Of a stretch of 31,199 bases of DNA, positions 982-28,967 are shown piece by piece (the first letter of the stretch is position 1; each line of letters begins with the position of its first letter). The notes beneath the pieces were generated by a model. It worked only from the letters and a program-made list of their open reading frames with translations, did no database searches and had not been told where the DNA came from. The DNA comes from a virus. Where the stretch lies: positions 1 through 31,199 of the IMG/VR virus record IMGVR_UViG_3300022744_000078; one strand, written 5' to 3'. Made by a program: the position numbers and the translations under genes.

Positions 982-1422
982 ATGAACATTGAAACCATAA
1001 AAGCCAAACAAGCCGAACTTGAAAAGCTCATTGAGCAATTCCAAGCGCAGACGACCGTCATCGAAATCAAAGAACGCACAATCAAGCTGCATCCTGGCGA
1101 ACACTATGCTGGAGCAGTCCTTGATGCCGAGGGCAATCACATGCACGACTTGATTCTGTTGCCCCAGCGTCACGGCGAGCGCGTCAATTGGAAGGCTGCA
1201 CTGGAGTGGGCCGAAGAAGTCGGTGGTGCACTGCCAACCCGCCAGGAGCAAGCCTTGATCTTCGCAAACTGCAAGCCGCACCTAGAAGGCGTTTACCACT
1301 GGTCCTGCGAGGAATATGAGGGAAACGCCTCTTCCGCCTGGGGTTGCAACTTCAGCCACGGCCGCCAGGACGACGGCCACGAACTCACCGAGCTTTCGGC
1401 TGTTGCCGTGCGTAGAGTTTAA
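982..1422 (+). CDS. DUF1566-like (C-type-lectin-fold) protein
   Basis: This protein is 146 aa from the ATG at 982, two bases after the previous stop; an in-frame TTG at 961 would overlap the upstream gene and is less likely. Residues 1-20 are a charged helix (IKAKQAELEKLIEQF). The rest has the DUF1566/Lcl-type pattern: a WKAALEWAEEVGG segment, LPTRQEQALIFANCKP, YHWSCEEY, and a C-terminal AVAVRRV. Such domains adopt a formylglycine-enzyme/C-type-lectin fold and are common in phages and prophages of Burkholderiales. The exposed segment between YHWS and AVAVRRV is the usual variable, ligand-facing part. Ligand and role are unknown. Confidence 0.8.
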   Translation: MNIETIKAKQAELEKLIEQFQAQTTVIEIKERTIKLHPGEHYAGAVLDAEGNHMHDLILLPQRHGERVNWKAALEWAEEVGGALPTRQEQALIFANCKPHLEGVYHWSCEEYEGNASSAWGCNFSHGRQDDGHELTELSAVAVRRV

Positions 1423-5669: not shown

Positions 5670-5905
5670 AAGTTGAAATTTTTGGTCCCTACCCGTATGA
5701 GTTTGAGCACTTGTCTGCTCTGCTTCAACTCATACCACCCGAGGCCAAGCATGTCATCATTCAAGCACCCTATCGACGAGACCCTTATCTGAAAGCCTGC
5801 CAGCGCCCAAACACCCTTGAGTACGTGGCAAGCATAGATAATTCAAAATTTATTTTCTACTCACACCACCCAACTCAGGGAGTTGTGATAAAATCCCCAA
5901 CTTGA
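5666..5905 (+). CDS. Hypothetical protein (79 aa)
   Basis: This gene is coupled by ATGA to the previous one. The sequence MKVEIFGPYPYEFEHLSALLQLIPPEAKHVIIQAPYRRDP suggests a small alpha/beta fold with alternating strands and a helix. Its stop codon lies inside the hairpin that leads the next transcription unit. No motif was recognised. Confidence 0.7.
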   Translation: MKVEIFGPYPYEFEHLSALLQLIPPEAKHVIIQAPYRRDPYLKACQRPNTLEYVASIDNSKFIFYSHHPTQGVVIKSPT

Positions 5906-6207: not shown

Positions 6208-6229
6208 GCTGAACAGGCGTCCACAATCA

Positions 6230-6255
6230 ACCGGGCTTAGGCCCGGTTTTCTTTT
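6230..6255 (+). terminator. Rho-independent terminator
   Basis: The 7-bp stem ACCGGGC/GCCCGGT with loop TTAG is followed by TTTCTTTT. It closes the 5950-6207 unit and lies ten bases before the next start codon. Confidence 0.9.
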
Positions 6256-14414: not shown

Positions 14415-14441
14415 AAAAGCCCAGAGTAATCTGGGCTTTTT
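14415..14441 (+). terminator. Rho-independent terminator
   Basis: An 11-bp stem, AAAAGCCCAGA/TCTGGGCTTTT with loop GTAA, ends in a T run. It closes the 13680-14399 unit. The next ATG begins two bases after the T-tract. Confidence 0.9.
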
Positions 14442-16043: not shown

Positions 16044-16074
16044 CGACCCGCCTAATCAGCGGGTCGCTTCTTTT
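16044..16074 (+). terminator. Rho-independent terminator
   Basis: The 8-bp stem CGACCCGC/GCGGGTCG with a 7-nt loop is followed by CTTCTTTT. It separates the nucleotide-metabolism genes from the polymerase gene. Confidence 0.9.
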
Positions 16075-16083
16075 GGAGGGCCT

Positions 16084-16143
16084 ATGGCTCGGGTATTTGT
16101 AATTGCGTTCTGGATTTGGTTGTTCTATATTTTAACTAAGTAA
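16084..16143 (+). CDS. Putative 19-aa membrane microprotein
   Basis: ATG 16084 is preceded by GGAGGG, a strong if slightly close RBS. The peptide MARVFVIAFWIWLFYILTK is almost entirely hydrophobic, with a basic residue near each end, so it should span the membrane once. It lies alone between a terminator and the polymerase gene. It could be a regulator of a membrane protein, a leader peptide or chance; the RBS and composition favour a real product. Confidence 0.5.
   Translation: MARVFVIAFWIWLFYILTK
16103..16131 (+). promoter_or_regulatory. Possible promoter for DNA polymerase
   Basis: TTGCGT (16103-16108), a 17-nt spacer and TATATT (16126-16131) form a plausible sigma-70 promoter inside the microprotein ORF. 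Transcription would start near 16138, upstream of the polymerase RBS. It follows a strong terminator, so a promoter is needed hereabouts; the -35 is weak. Confidence 0.35.
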
Positions 16144-16154
16144 AGGAATCTACT

Positions 16155-19100
16155 ATGAAGATAGCGTTTGACATGTCATCTGTTATGTGGACTTGCCTCT
16201 CTGTCGGAAAAGACAAGGAAGGCCAAGAGGTAATCGGTGAAGATGGTAAACCGTACTGGGTAAACACCCAAGCCTACGGGTATGAGAACGTGGTCAACTA
16301 CATTGTTGCCTCTCTCAAGAAATTCAACCTGACCCCCAAGGATGCAATCCTTGTGTTCGAGGGTCAGTCCAGCAAGGTCATGCGCGGCATGATCGACAAA
16401 GAGTACAAGGCGCAACGGGGCCGCCGCCCTAACGAAGCCTATGTCGAGTTCAACAACCTCAAGAACCAACTGCAAGAAGTCTTTGGCAAGTTGGGTGCTT
16501 TGGCCCTGACTCAAGACTACGTTGAGGGTGACGACATTCTTGGCTGGCTGGCACAGCACACCGAAGAAGACCTCGTGATTCGATCAGGCGATGGTGACTT
16601 GTCTGTACTCGCAGGGGTCAATACCTACGGTGCAACGGTGCATACAAGCATTGGTGACCGGGACCTGGACGAGAATCCTTTTGGGCCTTTCGAGAACCGC
16701 TGGATTGGCGTGTACAAAGCCCTTGTGGGTGATTCGTCTGACAACATCAAGGGTGTGCCCGGCTTCGGCCCGGCCGCCTTTGGCGAGTTCTACCGTACCT
16801 ACCAGGACGCCGGCCTGGAAGAACTTGCCCGGATGGCAGAGACAGGCACCTTGGACGAATTGCATAGCGAGTGCGACAACAAGGCTGTCAAGAAAATTTT
16901 TGACAACTCCGCAGAATTCCTCCAGTCATGGAAGTTGGCCAAGATTCACGCAGAGTGGGTCAACACCCTGCAAAACCCCCTGCAATGGTCGCCCGGCCTG
17001 ATTCGTGGGACGGTGGACGATGAGAGGTTGGCCAAGTGGGCAGGCAAGTCATACCTTGTGTCCGGCAGCAAGTGGGAGTCCTTCAAGTCGTGGGCCAAGC
17101 CTCTGATTGCCCAGTCCGACTTCGTGGCACTGGACATTGAGACTTCCACGCCTGACGAATCCGATGCGTGGGTCGAAGCCAATGGCGGTATCGTTGACGT
17201 TATCGGCTCCGAGTTGTCCGGTATGTCCCTCACCTTTGGGGATAACCTGCAATACACCGTTTACATTCCAGTCGATCATGTTGACACCGACTGCGTACCT
17301 CTTGACGACGTGGCTGACTTCGCCATGAACCTTGGCAAGCAATTGGTCATCCAGAACGTAGCGTTCGAGGGGCCTGTACTCTACAACGCTTGGGGCGAGC
17401 ACTTCAAGAACAACGGCTATGAGGGCTACCTACCTGACTGGCTGGACACTAAACTGGAAGCCTCCTACGTCAATGAGAACGAGCCCTTGGGCTTGAAGAA
17501 GTTGGCCAAAATGTACTTCGGCTACGACCAAGTTGAGTACAACACAGTGACAACCCTGGAAGGCCCTGCTGGCACTTTGCAGGGTGGTCAGTTGTTGAGC
17601 ACCATCGACAAGTGTGTCAAGGAAGCTGTAATCCGTGAGGTCACAGCAGTTGACGTAGAGATAGAGTCCCAGAAGTATGCCGTGGCAATGGTTGCATGGG
17701 AGCGAGATATGCTCTCACCGGACTGTGAGACTCCAAGGCCCGACGCCCCGGTTTTGGTCGAAGGGGCCACAATCGAAGTCGAGCCGGCAGTGTTCGAGAC
17801 CCTTGAGCGCCGCCAGTACAAGATGCGGGAACTCTCGGCTGCACACGTCAAGTCTTACGCCTGTGACGACACCATCGTTACTGCTTCGCTGCACAACTTC
17901 TTCAAGTTGCACATGCAACTTGAGCACCACTGGAAGGTGTACTTGGACGTTGAAATCGACGCCTCCTACCTACATGCCCAGAGCTACGTTCATGGTGTAA
18001 AAGTTGATCTGGCTAAGTTGCATGAGTTGGCGTCTGAAGACGAGAAGACGAAGACAACCGCCGAAGCAGTGCTGCACAAGTACCTGATTGCAAACGGGTG
18101 GGACGGCACCGTTGCACCTAAGTATGAAACCTTGGATGCAGCGGCCATCAAGCAAGCGGCCCTGATCTGTGGTCAAGAACTCAAGACTGCGGTGCGAACA
18201 CCGGCCAAACTGGCGGCCATGCTCGAAGACAAGCTGCTTGCCGAAATGGTCTTGGCTAACGACGCCGCAGGCGTGACTGCTTACGTCGGCCGCCGCTTCA
18301 TCGCTGCGCCAGAGTTCAACGCAGGTAGCCCCAAGCAGATCACACGGCTGCTCTACGAAGTGATGGGCTTGCCCCTACGTATGTTCAACAATACACAGGG
18401 AACCAAGTCGAATGAGTCGATTCGCAATGCGATGGACGTTCCTCTGCTATGGGCGCAGTACCAGGCGATGCCTCAACCTGGGGGCGGTGCCCGGCTACCG
18501 AATCCGTCCACAGACACCACGGCAATTGCCTATGCCATGCTTGACGCCTCACAAGATCAAAAGGAAACCCTTGAAGCCTTGAAACTAATCAAGATGGTAC
18601 AGACCAGACAAGGGCTGTACTATGAGACATACCCAAAACTTGTCCATTGGAAGACAGGTAGAATACACTCTACACATAATCAGTGTGGTACAAACACAAG
18701 GCGAGCCAGCAGTGCTGCACCTAATCTTCAACAGTTACCAAAGCACGCTAAGATTGAAGGTCAGGCAGCTAGGTTCCGGGAAGTAATCGTACCACATAAG
18801 CGAAAAGCTGTGATTGTGTCGATGGACTTCTCTTCACAAGAGATTCTGCTACTTGCCGAGTGGTCTAAAGACCCGGTGCTGTGTGACGTGTTTATAGGAG
18901 ACAACCCTAAAGATATGCACTCAATTACAGGTCTTGGAATTTATAACCAGAAGTATGAGCCAATTACATACGAGCAGTTTGTAACTGCCAAGGATGATAA
19001 GTCTGATACTCTCTACGAGCCGGTTAAGAAGTGCCGGTCACTAGGTAAAGCTGTAAACTTCGGCAGCCAGTATCGCATTAAGCCAGGTAAGTTAAGCCGT

Positions 19101-19640
19101 ATGTTAATGGTATCTAAAGCAGATGCAGCAGACATGTTGGCAGCTAAAGCAGAGGCTTTCCCTGTAGCTGAAGAGTGGGCAGAAAAAGAAATGGCAGCCA
19201 TCTACGAAGATGGCAAGGTCAAGACGATGATGGGCGCAGTTCGCCACTTAGCCAAGATGATCGACCAAGCCTCCAGTGGGGACGAGGAAGGGCCACAACG
19301 CCAAGCCTTGTCATTCCGAATCCAAGGTTCTGCGTCTGAGATGACCAAGTTGGCAGAGGGCCGTATGTGGAAGGCCAGACTTGAGCAGACCTTTGACTGC
19401 GAAGTCATTGCACCTATTCACGATGAGTGTGTCTTCTCTGTGGCACTCTCTGACCTGGTTCCGTTCATGGTTGTAGCTCATACCTGCATGGTCGGCAATT
19501 ATGCCAACATGACCTTGCCGATCAAGAGTAGCATCTCGTTCGGCCCTTCATTCGGTGAGCAGATTGAAATTGGTGACCAGCCTACGCCGGAAGCCATTGC
19601 TGAAGGGCTTTCCACAATGCAGGCACAGAAGGCAGTTTGA
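16155..19640 (+). CDS. Family A DNA polymerase with 5' nuclease and 3'-5' exonuclease domains
   Basis: This 1161-aa polymerase has AAGGA seven bases before its ATG. The N-terminal 5' nuclease includes VEGDDILGWLA and GDSSDNIKGVPGFG (G192-G205 region). The exonuclease domain has Exo I DIET (D327, E329), Exo II QNVAFE (E405 where Asp is usual) and Exo III YACDD (Y568, D572). The polymerase domain has motif A DFSSQE (D891-E896), motif B R961xxxK965xxNFG and motif C HDE (1089-1091). It is about 230 aa longer than E. coli Pol I, with much extra sequence near the exonuclease domain (about 505-560). One chain could synthesise, proofread and remove primers. A lower-GC patch covers motifs A and B. Confidence 0.95.
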   Translation: MKIAFDMSSVMWTCLSVGKDKEGQEVIGEDGKPYWVNTQAYGYENVVNYIVASLKKFNLTPKDAILVFEGQSSKVMRGMIDKEYKAQRGRRPNEAYVEFNNLKNQLQEVFGKLGALALTQDYVEGDDILGWLAQHTEEDLVIRSGDGDLSVLAGVNTYGATVHTSIGDRDLDENPFGPFENRWIGVYKALVGDSSDNIKGVPGFGPAAFGEFYRTYQDAGLEELARMAETGTLDELHSECDNKAVKKIFDNSAEFLQSWKLAKIHAEWVNTLQNPLQWSPGLIRGTVDDERLAKWAGKSYLVSGSKWESFKSWAKPLIAQSDFVALDIETSTPDESDAWVEANGGIVDVIGSELSGMSLTFGDNLQYTVYIPVDHVDTDCVPLDDVADFAMNLGKQLVIQNVAFEGPVLYNAWGEHFKNNGYEGYLPDWLDTKLEASYVNENEPLGLKKLAKMYFGYDQVEYNTVTTLEGPAGTLQGGQLLSTIDKCVKEAVIREVTAVDVEIESQKYAVAMVAWERDMLSPDCETPRPDAPVLVEGATIEVEPAVFETLERRQYKMRELSAAHVKSYACDDTIVTASLHNFFKLHMQLEHHWKVYLDVEIDASYLHAQSYVHGVKVDLAKLHELASEDEKTKTTAEAVLHKYLIANGWDGTVAPKYETLDAAAIKQAALICGQELKTAVRTPAKLAAMLEDKLLAEMVLANDAAGVTAYVGRRFIAAPEFNAGSPKQITRLLYEVMGLPLRMFNNTQGTKSNESIRNAMDVPLLWAQYQAMPQPGGGARLPNPSTDTTAIAYAMLDASQDQKETLEALKLIKMVQTRQGLYYETYPKLVHWKTGRIHSTHNQCGTNTRRASSAAPNLQQLPKHAKIEGQAARFREVIVPHKRKAVIVSMDFSSQEILLLAEWSKDPVLCDVFIGDNPKDMHSITGLGIYNQKYEPITYEQFVTAKDDKSDTLYEPVKKCRSLGKAVNFGSQYRIKPGKLSRMLMVSKADAADMLAAKAEAFPVAEEWAEKEMAAIYEDGKVKTMMGAVRHLAKMIDQASSGDEEGPQRQALSFRIQGSASEMTKLAEGRMWKARLEQTFDCEVIAPIHDECVFSVALSDLVPFMVVAHTCMVGNYANMTLPIKSSISFGPSFGEQIEIGDQPTPEAIAEGLSTMQAQKAV

Positions 19641-19650
19641 TGTACAATCC

Positions 19651-19678
19651 CCGAGCCGGACACCTCTCTCTGGCTCGG
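19651..19678 (+). repeat. GC-rich hairpin in polymerase-thyX gap
   Basis: CCGAGCC (19651-19657) pairs with GGCTCGG (19672-19678) around a 14-nt pyrimidine-rich loop. No U-tract follows, so it is not a standard terminator. It starts ten bases after the polymerase stop. Confidence 0.6.
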
Positions 19679-19708
19679 AGTGGAATCCGAAAATAGAAGT
19701 TTGTAAAC

Positions 19709-19778
19709 GCGATCAGCACTAGACCCGAGGCAACTTCAGCCTATTCCACCGGGACTTCTGCTGATCGCTTTTGCTTTT
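19709..19778 (+). terminator. Long-loop terminator or structured RNA
   Basis: A perfect 10-bp stem, GCGATCAGCA/TGCTGATCGC (19709-19718 and 19759-19768), is followed by TTTTGCTTTT. The 40-nt loop is itself structured: CCCG/CGGG (19724-19727 with 19750-19753) encloses AGGC/GCCT (19728-19731 with 19739-19742), with apical loop AACTTCA. It can end transcription after the polymerase gene. The nested loop is unusual and could be the 3' half of a small RNA or a leader for thyX. Confidence 0.7.
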
Positions 19779-19782
19779 GGAG

Positions 19783-19824
19783 ATGAATATGCCCACTAAA
19801 ACACCCAACAAAGGAACCCAATGA
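19783..19824 (+). CDS. Possible 13-aa leader ORF before thyX
   Basis: GGAG lies at or before ATG 19783 (alternative ATG 19789, with GGAG six bases upstream). The peptide MNMPTKTPNKGTQ is polar, and its TGA overlaps the thyX ATG as ATGA. It may couple translation to thyX or be chance. thyX has its own RBS (AAGGA, five bases upstream), which weakens the need for coupling. Confidence 0.3.
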   Translation: MNMPTKTPNKGTQ

Positions 19825-20624
19825 AAATAGAAGCAAAAATCATTAAAGACTCCATCTCTGAGGCTGGAGACCGATTGACTACTTTAGAGTTGTGCTACCC
19901 ACGCATAATTCATGGTGAAGTTATGACACATAGGGTTTTCTCTAGGAACGCTATGAGTTCACGAGCCATACCTATGAAAAAGGTATTGGCTGAAGTCTGG
20001 AATGACCCTTTCGTACCTATGCACTGGGGTAAGAACCAGCCCGGTATGCAGGCCAAGCAGGAACTGACAGGCATCAAGCGTTGGGTTGCTGAGGCCTTGT
20101 GGCGACAAGCCTCCAAGGCTGCCTGCATTTTCGCATGGGGCATGAACAAGGTTGGCCTCCACAAGCAGATCGGAAATCGAATTTTAGAGCCTTTCCAGTG
20201 GATGCGCGTCATTCTCACGGCAACCGAGTGGGATAACTTCTTTGAACTGCGTGACCACCCAGACGCTGAACCGCACTTCCAGGTTTTGGCCAAGGCAATC
20301 CGACAGGCAAGGGATGGCAGCAAACCCACCCTGCTCAGGCTTGGTGAGTGGCACTTGCCCTATGTTGCAGAAGGTGAGGGCAGGTGGCTGCCGTACATGA
20401 CACCGGCAAAACTCAGCGCAGCACGTTGCGCCAGAGTCAGCTACTTGACGCATGATGGGCGCAAACCATCGAACAAGGAAGACCTTGACTTGTTCAAGAG
20501 ACTGGCCGGAAGCCGCCCCTTGCACGCCAGCCCACTTGAGCACCAAGCCACACCGGGCACTGAAGACACCGGAAACTTCAGGGGCTGGACACAGTACCGG
20601 AAGCTGTGGGAGAAAGAAGTATGA
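19821..20624 (+). CDS. thyX: ThyX-like flavin-dependent thymidylate synthase
   Basis: The 267-aa protein carries THRVFSRNAMSSR (36-48), matching the ThyX motif RHRxxSxNxxSxR except for Thr in place of the first Arg. Near the C-terminus is SPLEHQATP (E240, H241), followed by NFRGWTQYRK, resembling the EH region that normally lies just before the ThyX motif. The family converts dUMP to dTMP using FAD, NADPH and methylene-tetrahydrofolate. The order of the two signatures is swapped relative to classical ThyX. It fits the dNTP-supply genes nearby. Activity is assumed from family and should be treated as probable. Confidence 0.8.
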   Translation: MKIEAKIIKDSISEAGDRLTTLELCYPRIIHGEVMTHRVFSRNAMSSRAIPMKKVLAEVWNDPFVPMHWGKNQPGMQAKQELTGIKRWVAEALWRQASKAACIFAWGMNKVGLHKQIGNRILEPFQWMRVILTATEWDNFFELRDHPDAEPHFQVLAKAIRQARDGSKPTLLRLGEWHLPYVAEGEGRWLPYMTPAKLSAARCARVSYLTHDGRKPSNKEDLDLFKRLAGSRPLHASPLEHQATPGTEDTGNFRGWTQYRKLWEKEV

Positions 20625-26467: not shown

Positions 26468-26498
26468 AAAGCCGTCACGACTTGAGTGACGGCTTTTT
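26468..26498 (-). terminator. Terminator between tail and lysis genes (bidirectional)
   Basis: The 11-bp stem AAAGCCGTCAC/GTGACGGCTTT has a 7-nt loop and T-rich runs on both strands. On the - strand it follows the 80-aa gene and is read as GTGACGGC followed by TTTCTTTTG. It separates tail from lysis transcription. Confidence 0.85.
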
Positions 26499-27195: not shown

Positions 27196-28446
27196 TTAGA
27201 ACCCTTCTGTCCAAGCCAACACCACAAAGCCGTTACCCCCCGCGCCGCCAGTACCTAGACCAGAGGTTACAGAAGCACCCCCGCCACCGCCAGCACCAAA
27301 GCCCCCAGCACCTCCCGTAGCCGCAGCCGCCGAAGTTCCGGCACCACCGCCACCACCTCCGAAACCACCTGCGCCGGCAACGCTGGCACCACCAGAAGCC
27401 CCACCGCCGCCACCACCGAAGCCCCCTGCACCGCCGGTTGCTGAAACTGGAGAAGCCCCAGAGCTCTGTGCCCCGCCCCCACCACCGCCATCTATACCAG
27501 ACCCGCCCGTGGAAACAGCGGAAGCTGTGGAAATGTAGTTTCCACCGCCGCCTGAGCCACGAGAGAACTGCCCAAGCAGGTAGTCAAATAGAGTGTAAGA
27601 GGCCTGTGACGCTGTAGTAATCCCAGCACCCCCCGCTGTTGATGTAGAACCAGCACCACCCGCAGCACCGACCCAACCGATGCCTCCAGTTGTCGCACTG
27701 TTGCCTGTGGATGCTGAAGATACACCACCACTCCCCCCACCTCCTGTTGCAGACTGATTGTTTGAGATAGCCCCGGCACCGAATAAAATACCTCCTCCAC
27801 CTGTTGCCGCAGAGGTTGCACTGGAGGAACCCCCATCAGAGGAAAGCCCTCCACCACCAAGTCCTGTGGCGGCTACCGCAGTGCCCGTGGCAGAGCCGCC
27901 ATTCCCCGGCCCACTCAACCATCCCATTGCCCCGCCGCCCGTACCGCAACCGCTTACAGTTGCGCTCGGTGCGCTACCACCAGCCCCGCCAGAAGAAGAA
28001 GCCAAGAACCGGCCAACGCCAAGGGCTACCGTCCCGCCTGCTCCACCTGTAACTGCCGCAGCAGCCGCACGACCACCTGTTGCACCGCCTGTGCAAGAGA
28101 CGAATGTTCCCACACTAGAAGTTCCACCTGCTGTACCCGCAGCGTTTGAGCCGCCTGCGCCACCTGCGCCAACAGTAATCGTTGGCAACAGTTGACCGGG
28201 TACTACGTCAATGATTGCAGCAGCAAAGGCCCCGCCACCGCCGCCAGCAGCATTGCCGTTGGTGAAGCCAGAACCACCACCACCGCCACCGACAACAATT
28301 GCCAGAACTTGAAAGACGTTCTGAGGTACAACGAAGTCAGTATATGTGCCTGGCTTTGTATAGAATTTCTGATTAGCCCACTTAGAAGGTGCAACCCTTG
28401 TAGGTGCATTAGGCGGCAATGGGTAACCGTATGTACCACGATTCAT
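27196..28446 (-). CDS. Glycine-rich tail fibre/adhesin-like protein (416 aa)
   Basis: A short N-terminal part (about 1-50, including NQKFYTKPGTYTDFVVPQNV) is followed by about 350 residues dominated by Gly, Ala, Ser and Thr, with many GGGG runs and GGAGGxG repeats. It ends GGAGGNGFVVLAWTEGF. This matches the Gly_rich domain found in phage tail fibres, which can pack as polyglycine-II-like helices. The middle should be flexible in sequence and adaptable in surface loops. It lies among tail genes, so host recognition is the likely role. The start overlaps the HNH gene by ATGA. Confidence 0.85.
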   Translation of the reverse strand: MNRGTYGYPLPPNAPTRVAPSKWANQKFYTKPGTYTDFVVPQNVFQVLAIVVGGGGGGSGFTNGNAAGGGGGAFAAAIIDVVPGQLLPTITVGAGGAGGSNAAGTAGGTSSVGTFVSCTGGATGGRAAAAAVTGGAGGTVALGVGRFLASSSGGAGGSAPSATVSGCGTGGGAMGWLSGPGNGGSATGTAVAATGLGGGGLSSDGGSSSATSAATGGGGILFGAGAISNNQSATGGGGSGGVSSASTGNSATTGGIGWVGAAGGAGSTSTAGGAGITTASQASYTLFDYLLGQFSRGSGGGGNYISTASAVSTGGSGIDGGGGGGAQSSGASPVSATGGAGGFGGGGGGASGGASVAGAGGFGGGGGGAGTSAAAATGGAGGFGAGGGGGASVTSGLGTGGAGGNGFVVLAWTEGF

Positions 28447-28967
28447 ACCCGCACCTCTTTAAGATAGTTGATTGCGTTTTGCATGATTTCCTCGCTTTCT
28501 TTCAAGTAACCAATTCCTGCATTACAGGGATGACACAGAAGCCCACGGATTCGCCCGGTGTCGTGGCAGAGGTCAACCGACAAGTTGTCGGAGTTTTTTG
28601 AACCACTATCCTTGCTTCCGCAAATTGCACATTTCCACCGCTGCGCTTCACCAAGTTCTTCGTATTCTTTCTGCGTGATTCCATACTTATTCTTGAGTCT
28701 TGCTGCGCGGTTCCTTTCAGCCACACGCTGTTTGTTCTCGGCGTTCCAGCGCCTCGCCCGTTCTTTGTCTCGCTCTGGTGCAGATCGGTAAGCTGCTGCC
28801 TTCTTTGCCTTTACCAAGGCCTCGTTTGCTTCCTTGTATGCCCTAGTTCTGGCAACCGCACACTCTTTGCAGGTGCTGCAAACGCCGAGCAGCTTTGACT
28901 TGTCTTTATGGAACATTTCAAGCTGCTTTTCTACTTTGCAAACTGAGCAGATCTTACTATTATTCAT
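28443..28967 (-). CDS. Endonuclease VII/HNH-like protein with altered catalytic site
   Basis: The 174-aa protein has an N-terminal Cys cluster (C7, C10, C30, C33, C36), a basic helical middle (about 40-100), then WKCAICG (C113, C116) and VDLCHDTGRIRGLLCHPCN (131-149). This is the endonuclease VII/HNH arrangement with a zinc site and the RGLLC..CN block. The expected DH at the active site (usually VDHCH) is D132-L133; H135 and N149 remain. One A-to-T change (CAC to CTC) would explain it. It overlaps both neighbours by ATGA/TAATG. It may be a resident homing-type gene, possibly inactive. Confidence 0.85.
   Translation of the reverse strand: MNNSKICSVCKVEKQLEMFHKDKSKLLGVCSTCKECAVARTRAYKEANEALVKAKKAAAYRSAPERDKERARRWNAENKQRVAERNRAARLKNKYGITQKEYEELGEAQRWKCAICGSKDSGSKNSDNLSVDLCHDTGRIRGLLCHPCNAGIGYLKESEEIMQNAINYLKEVRV

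Follow-up and report, generated by a model that had tools for sequence, protein, structure and literature searches.

The window, the whole 31,199-base stretch of DNA analysed here, is a phage record in which a gap of 180 bases (19641-19820) separates a DNA polymerase reading frame, ending at 19640, from thyX, starting at 19821. Downstream of thyX follow genes for a Holliday-junction-type nuclease and for SbcD-like and SbcC-like proteins. Reading across the gap, we distinguished the following features.

16155-19640, plus strand: PolA-type DNA polymerase with N-terminal exonuclease, the upstream neighbour of the gap
19643-19648, plus strand: TACAAT, candidate -10-like hexamer abutting HP1 (by eye; weak, with no convincing -35)
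19651-19660/19669-19678, plus strand: hairpin HP1, ten pairs including one G-U (fold, pair check)
19680-19686, plus strand: strand a, GTGGAAT, with partner a' (pair check, nascent-RNA folds)
19696-19701, plus strand: strand b, GAAGTT, with partner b' AACTTC at 19732-19737 in the Q loop (pair check)
19702-19708, plus strand: A-rich linker TGTAAAC, in which GTAAA can extend P by pairing with the U-tract
19709-19718/19759-19768, plus strand: terminator stem P, enclosing 40 nt (fold, shuffles, pair check)
19728-19742, plus strand: inner hairpin Q, AGGC/GCCT, with the 7-nt loop AACTTCA that holds b' (fold, pair check)
19743-19749, plus strand: strand a', ATTCCAC, immediately 3' of Q (pair check)
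19769-19778, plus strand: U-tract TTTTGCTTTT, expected 3' end of the terminated RNA (read from sequence, terminator scan)
19779-19782, plus strand: Shine-Dalgarno GGAG, in a helix with 19686-19692 in the minimum-energy fold
19789-19824, plus strand: 11-codon ORF MPTKTPNKGTQ (by eye; its stop overlaps the thyX start)
19821-20624, plus strand: thyX, flavin-dependent thymidylate synthase, the downstream neighbour

The original prediction had described the gap, a hairpin and a 10-bp stem closing a 40-nt loop before a T-tract, all of which are present at their predicted positions; GAAGTT (19696-19701) and GTGGAAT (19680-19686) likewise match AACTTC (19732-19737) and ATTCCAC (19743-19749) exactly as placed. 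The strong GGAG at 19779-19782 and the 11-codon ORF, whose TGA overlaps the thyX ATG, are additions to that description. HP1 contains a perfect 7-pair core (CCGAGCC, 19651-19657; GGCTCGG, 19672-19678), and the arms of P, GCGATCAGCA (19709-19718) and TGCTGATCGC (19759-19768), form ten perfect pairs, six of them G-C. As in an intrinsic terminator, a stable, G-C-containing stem runs directly into a U-tract. The loop of P, in contrast, is 40 nt and structured rather than 3-8 nt, and P is unlisted in a short-loop scan; loops of 40-53 nt (in the window and the related contig L108) and pairing with upstream strands set the element apart from an ordinary terminator.

Other parts of the window also contain hairpins and repeats. 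Just upstream of the polymerase (16044-16154) lie a terminator-like hairpin, a U-tract, GGAG and a 19-codon hydrophobic ORF (16084-16143), and relatives have a different terminator-like hairpin at this place. Another such hairpin (14415-14440) stands immediately 5' of a dnaQ-like gene; L119 and L123 have one at the same place, with A-T replaced by G-C on both sides, and L127 has none. A perfect 11-bp hairpin at 26468-26496, T-rich on both sides, resembles a two-way terminator. At 29-980 lie two adjacent alanine-rich repeat proteins with an internal 12-base periodicity, in which the 119-base stretches 2-120 and 651-769 are 82% identical.

Shuffling separated the long stem from the short pairings. 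Among 5000 dinucleotide shuffles made from the gap, 34 contained a perfect 10-bp inverted repeat with a loop of at most 60 nt, bearing out the view that the stem exceeds chance. The gap folds at -62.8 kcal/mol (z = -5.18), with none of 200 shuffles equally stable; in a scan of 120-nt windows this stretch (19681, z -5.0) ranked fifth of 1036 by z, so the fold is strong but not unique. At least one perfect 7-mer complement occurred in 43% of the gap shuffles, and GTGGAAT/ATTCCAC compared with shuffled loops gave p = 0.48. Since a perfect 7-mer complement is thus expected anyway, the short pairings are not evidence in the window alone, and the original caution that matches of 6-7 bp could be chance was justified. 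They become evidence because relatives carry them too: the two pairings then doubted are found again, with altered bases, in two further phages.

We compared the polymerase/thyX junction among relatives. Ten contigs carry a relative of the C-terminal part of the polymerase, eight at 85-86% identity over that matched part and two at 47-48%. Such a gap is absent from all eight close relatives: in seven a nuclease gene follows the polymerase stop immediately, and in the eighth (L082) the two are separated by a small ORF. The two more distant contigs have other sequence after the polymerase. thyX is found elsewhere in the genome in four of the ten records; its absence from a record says little, because most are fragments. 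By eye, G006 (seen as L001) and G008 have no room for such an RNA before thyX. The contig L108, with 50% polymerase identity, has the order polymerase-thyX-nuclease as in the window and a polymerase-thyX gap of only 11 nt. The 180 nt are therefore not part of a conserved thyX unit, and the RNA would be an insertion or a remnant. In a further contig, L005, the RNA occupies the polymerase/thyX gap and is followed by an HNH gene, thyX and the nuclease. Across L086-L089, L108 and L005, the position of thyX varies: it lies behind the polymerase in the window, in L108 and, with the HNH gene between, in L005, and elsewhere in the close relatives of the window. In L096 (340-3507) the polymerase appears by eye to be mosaic, its N-terminal part nearly identical to L075 and its C-terminal part of a different type; the nuclease gene that follows is the same.

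These arrangements bear on the proposal of a regulatory leader for thyX. Its first half stands, as the gap does encode a structured RNA of regulatory type with a terminator; its specificity for thyX does not, given the eight close relatives without the gap and the arrangements in L108 and L005. In L108 the stems are missing from an 11-nt gap despite the conserved gene order, and here the thyX-leader idea fails. A leader or riboswitch dedicated to thyX would account for an element that ends just before thyX and for a small ORF overlapping the thyX start. However, the element is absent in L108 where thyX follows the polymerase, the L108 copy of the RNA lies two genes behind thyX and before another HNH gene, and in L005 the RNA and thyX have an HNH gene between them. 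Rfam returned no match to the window at the gathering score and no credible lower-scoring one for the window, L108 or L005, so an Rfam riboswitch identity was rejected; no folate or dTMP ligand is indicated. We regard a thyX-specific leader as highly improbable.

The counterpart in L108 was recognizable by anatomy. There, an HNH_3/AP2 gene is inserted between the nuclease and SbcD-like genes, and its leader (5728-5866) has the organization seen in the window: a hairpin, GTGGAAA directly behind it, a linker, a long stem, a U-tract, GGAG and a start codon. The long stem holds an inner 4-bp hairpin with a 7-nt loop and, directly 3' of it, TTTCCAC. Searches by sequence were uninformative. The gap sequence matched nothing among phages by blastn, and against 11 related records gave only one chance match, 19 nt long; the elements of L108 and L005 also matched no phage sequence. 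An exact-stem pattern gave eight matches, all unrelated palindromes, 12 bases shared by the Q region and window 1346-1371 (repeat D9) were taken as chance, and a loose descriptor was discarded for far too many matches.

We built a first descriptor from the window and L108 (HP1, a directly behind it, P, Q and a' directly behind Q) and applied it to 965,089 bases. With HP1 included, it found five distinct places, namely the window, L005, L039, L069 and L072, of which the last three were taken as chance after inspection of their sequences; a control of 1.95 M shuffled strand-bases gave no match. A C-C mismatch in HP1 kept L108 itself from being found. In L005, the RNA lies directly before an HNH gene (phrog_374, 2e-54), and b-b' reads CGAGT/ACTCG, though the descriptor did not require this pairing. 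Both other members thus carry the RNA directly before an endonuclease gene. A stricter descriptor found exactly three distinct places (nine rows from overlapping loci) in 1,227,727 bases, and 9.82 M shuffled strand-bases contained no match. This result measures rarity and is not an independent test, because the descriptor was tuned on the window, L108 and L005.

All three members share HP1 (5729-5753 in L108, 1222-1247 in L005), a, b, P, Q with a 7-nt loop and the U-tract, and in each a pairs with the 3' flank of Q and b with the Q loop. MAFFT alignments placed P or Q out of register, so no covariance model was built from L108 and L005 and pairs were counted in a register set by hand. Of 33 comparable pairs among the three members, 23 changed on both sides, 10 were unchanged and none changed on one side only; one position is a non-pair in L108. 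The a-a' pairing is 7/7 in every member. On its own, b-b' is weak (p 0.023 in the window; 0.14 and 0.13 in the relatives). The structure described in the original prediction is thereby supported by compensatory changes across relatives.

The same comparison weighs against an ordinary intrinsic terminator or attenuator within the operon, between polymerase and thyX, in which the extra pairings would be incidental. Other terminator-like hairpins do stand just before window genes (6229-6248, 14418-14437 and 16044-16066), relatives have a hairpin before the polymerase and some before dnaQ, and a-a' is not significant in the window alone. Those other hairpins, however, have short loops and no such partner strands, and both long-range pairings recur with changed bases in L108 and L005, which makes an ordinary terminator unlikely to be the full explanation. 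We rate lower still the chance that a small RNA is transcribed here independently, from its own promoter to the U-tract. The fold is discrete and ends in a U-tract, and -10-like hexamers resembling TACAAT adjoin HP1 in L108 and L005, as in the window. Yet there is no convincing -35, a consensus promoter scan lists neither TACAAT at 19643-19648 nor any other promoter in the gap, a start set by the hexamer would cut into HP1, and hardly any conserved sequence is available as a seed. Such a small RNA therefore appears doubtful.

Other HNH leaders were surveyed for similar organization. In the HNH/AP2 leaders of L142, L144, L145, L148, L150 and L146, hairpins carry a 6-7-nt loop whose complement lies in a loop or strand of the terminator stem that follows. 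The matches GTAGGAA/TTCCTAC and GTCGCAA/TTGCGAC are complete (7 x 7), which is at most suggestive. In an 8 x 8 table of hand-picked loops from these six leaders, the window and L108, each loop pairs best within its own leader, with ties only between the near-identical L142 and L144. These kissing-hairpin leaders at first looked like the same element and were set aside, as a loop-loop descriptor was not enriched (four distinct places in 2.46 M strand-bases, two of them HNH leaders, versus six in 4.91 M shuffled). None of ten HNH loci in named phages, all among the 1,227,727 bases searched, matched the strict descriptor, the leaders of nine having been inspected. By eye, stem loops in the HNH leaders of L183 (Pseudoalteromonas phage AL), L187 (Klebsiella phage YX3973) and L179 look complementary to the ribosome site or to sequence just before it, and L183 and L187 have GGGTAGCTCC in common. 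A genome scan with an HNH/AP2 alignment yielded a single, distant locus that was not useful, and a viral scan with the L005 HNH protein found only L005 itself and one distant relative.

Folding predictions were obtained for the full and the growing RNAs. The three RNAs fold by the same scheme (z -8.75, -4.67 and -6.24). Minimum-energy folding cannot combine the long-range pairings with P, and in these folds a and a' are unpaired in all three members. The A-rich linker pairs with the U-tract, the GTAAA pairing of the window being the same in L108 and L005, and GGAG lies in a helix in the window and L108. In growing-RNA folds taken when a' has just emerged, before P is possible, a-a' is 7/7 in the best fold of all three; b-b' is also in the best fold of L108 at this stage, and not in that of the window or L005. 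Four bases later in the window, P-side pairing displaces a-a' from the best fold by about 1 kcal/mol, and in L108 and L005 a-a' persists until roughly four bases of P's 3' arm have emerged.

These folds suggest that the element attenuates transcription and also masks the ribosome site. Strand a would pair with a' as soon as a' is transcribed; on emergence of its 3' arm, P would form beside the U-tract, and a-a' would be displaced or left as a pseudoknot. By opposing or timing the terminator, a-a' would act as a kinetic attenuator. Most transcripts would stop at 19769-19778, and in read-through RNA the GGAG would be kept in a helix, limiting translation. As L005 lacks the GGAG of the window and L108, ribosome-site masking is not common to all three members. 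Attenuation would hold down production of a harmful endonuclease; where that gene has been lost, the element would set how much of the polymerase transcript reaches thyX. In all three members, 4 to 10 nt separate the upstream stop codon from the start of the element. A ribosome terminating there would touch HP1, which makes coupling to upstream translation possible.

Several known phage systems resemble this arrangement. As described in the part of the source consulted (PMC2988022), hairpins masking the ribosome-binding site hold down the homing endonucleases I-TevI, II and III, segB and mobE, terminators restrain T4 mobE and segF, and promoter placement restrains phage homing endonucleases as well. 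The element shares with I-TevI/II/III, T4 segB, Aeh1 mobE and T4 mobE a structured RNA 5' of an endonuclease gene, a ribosome-binding site in a helix (window and L108) and a terminator cutting read-through (PMC2988022; PMC3014915, in the parts consulted). Unlike those controls, which are hairpins in the accounts consulted, it combines a terminator stem with two long-range pairings, and the window has no endonuclease frame. Also from that part of PMC2988022, the endonuclease gene seg43 of Aeromonas phage 25, a neighbour of a DNA polymerase gene, carries a stable hairpin just 5' of its RBS. A relative, phage 44RR, has noncoding sequence, the IC-UTS, at that place; these lie inside the PolB gene of T4-like phages. 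The T4/T2 gene 32 leader is likewise a phage leader pseudoknot upstream of a ribosome site, but a simple one bound by gp32 and with no terminator, as far as the consulted part of PMC3014915 goes. A literature search for an RNA such as the one described here found no paper, which is no proof of absence.

Overall, we consider it fairly likely that the gap holds a leader RNA from the 5' end of a free-standing HNH homing endonuclease gene, and that the window lacks the frame of this gene. Comparison shows a predicted fold of the same anatomy, with both long-range pairings and compensatory changes, before HNH genes in two related contigs. Besides this shared anatomy and the pair changes on both sides, the rarity under the strict descriptor, the fold z-score, the nascent a-a' pairing and the 11-nt gap in L108 argue for this reading. 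Weighing against it are a set of three members drawn from fragment records, a tuned descriptor, the three chance places of the first descriptor, the hand-made register, the weak b-b' and the absence of GGAG from L005. Directly downstream of the RNA, the window has no endonuclease frame, only the 11-codon ORF and then thyX, which is why we refer to a leader without its gene. An Endonuclease VII family gene (PF02945, 6e-23) is encoded at 28443-28967 on the minus strand, among minus-strand genes and with no leader gap before it. The overlap between the 11-codon ORF stop and the thyX start resembles that between the HNH stop and the thyX start in L005, and this ORF (19789-19824) may be a remnant of the endonuclease frame; beyond the start and stop context, no endonuclease remnant is demonstrable in the window. 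In the simplest history the frame would have been deleted, L005 having both RNA and HNH gene at the window's own junction; in the reverse history, the RNA would have been present first. The same doubt is raised in PMC2988022 about the IC-UTS that adjoins gene 43 in Aeromonas phages.

Leader-RNA control of homing-endonuclease genes is known, and the covarying terminator with long-range pairings would be a variant of it. Relatives of the L108 HNH protein occur in 3,043 of 50,697 phage records, so HNH endonuclease genes are very common in phages. HNH genes are known to restrain their own expression, but few examples have the role of RNA documented. Found before two different HNH genes, and once alone, a covarying terminator with long-range pairings offers an attenuator open to testing and a marker of homing sites that are empty or have been lost. 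It also illustrates that chance-looking short pairings in one genome may prove real once relatives are found by anatomy, not sequence. In the window, the leader probably still limits read-through from the polymerase gene into thyX. More tentatively, the element may represent a mobile class of leader, a pseudoknotted attenuator that travels with different homing endonuclease families and can outlive them, acting here as a throttle between DNA polymerase and thymidylate synthase. If so, its sequence would be almost free to vary while the long-range pairings are kept, and the pairing itself, rather than a ligand or a bound motif, would therefore be the regulator. A selfish gene's device for self-restraint would then have been turned into a phage operon switch.
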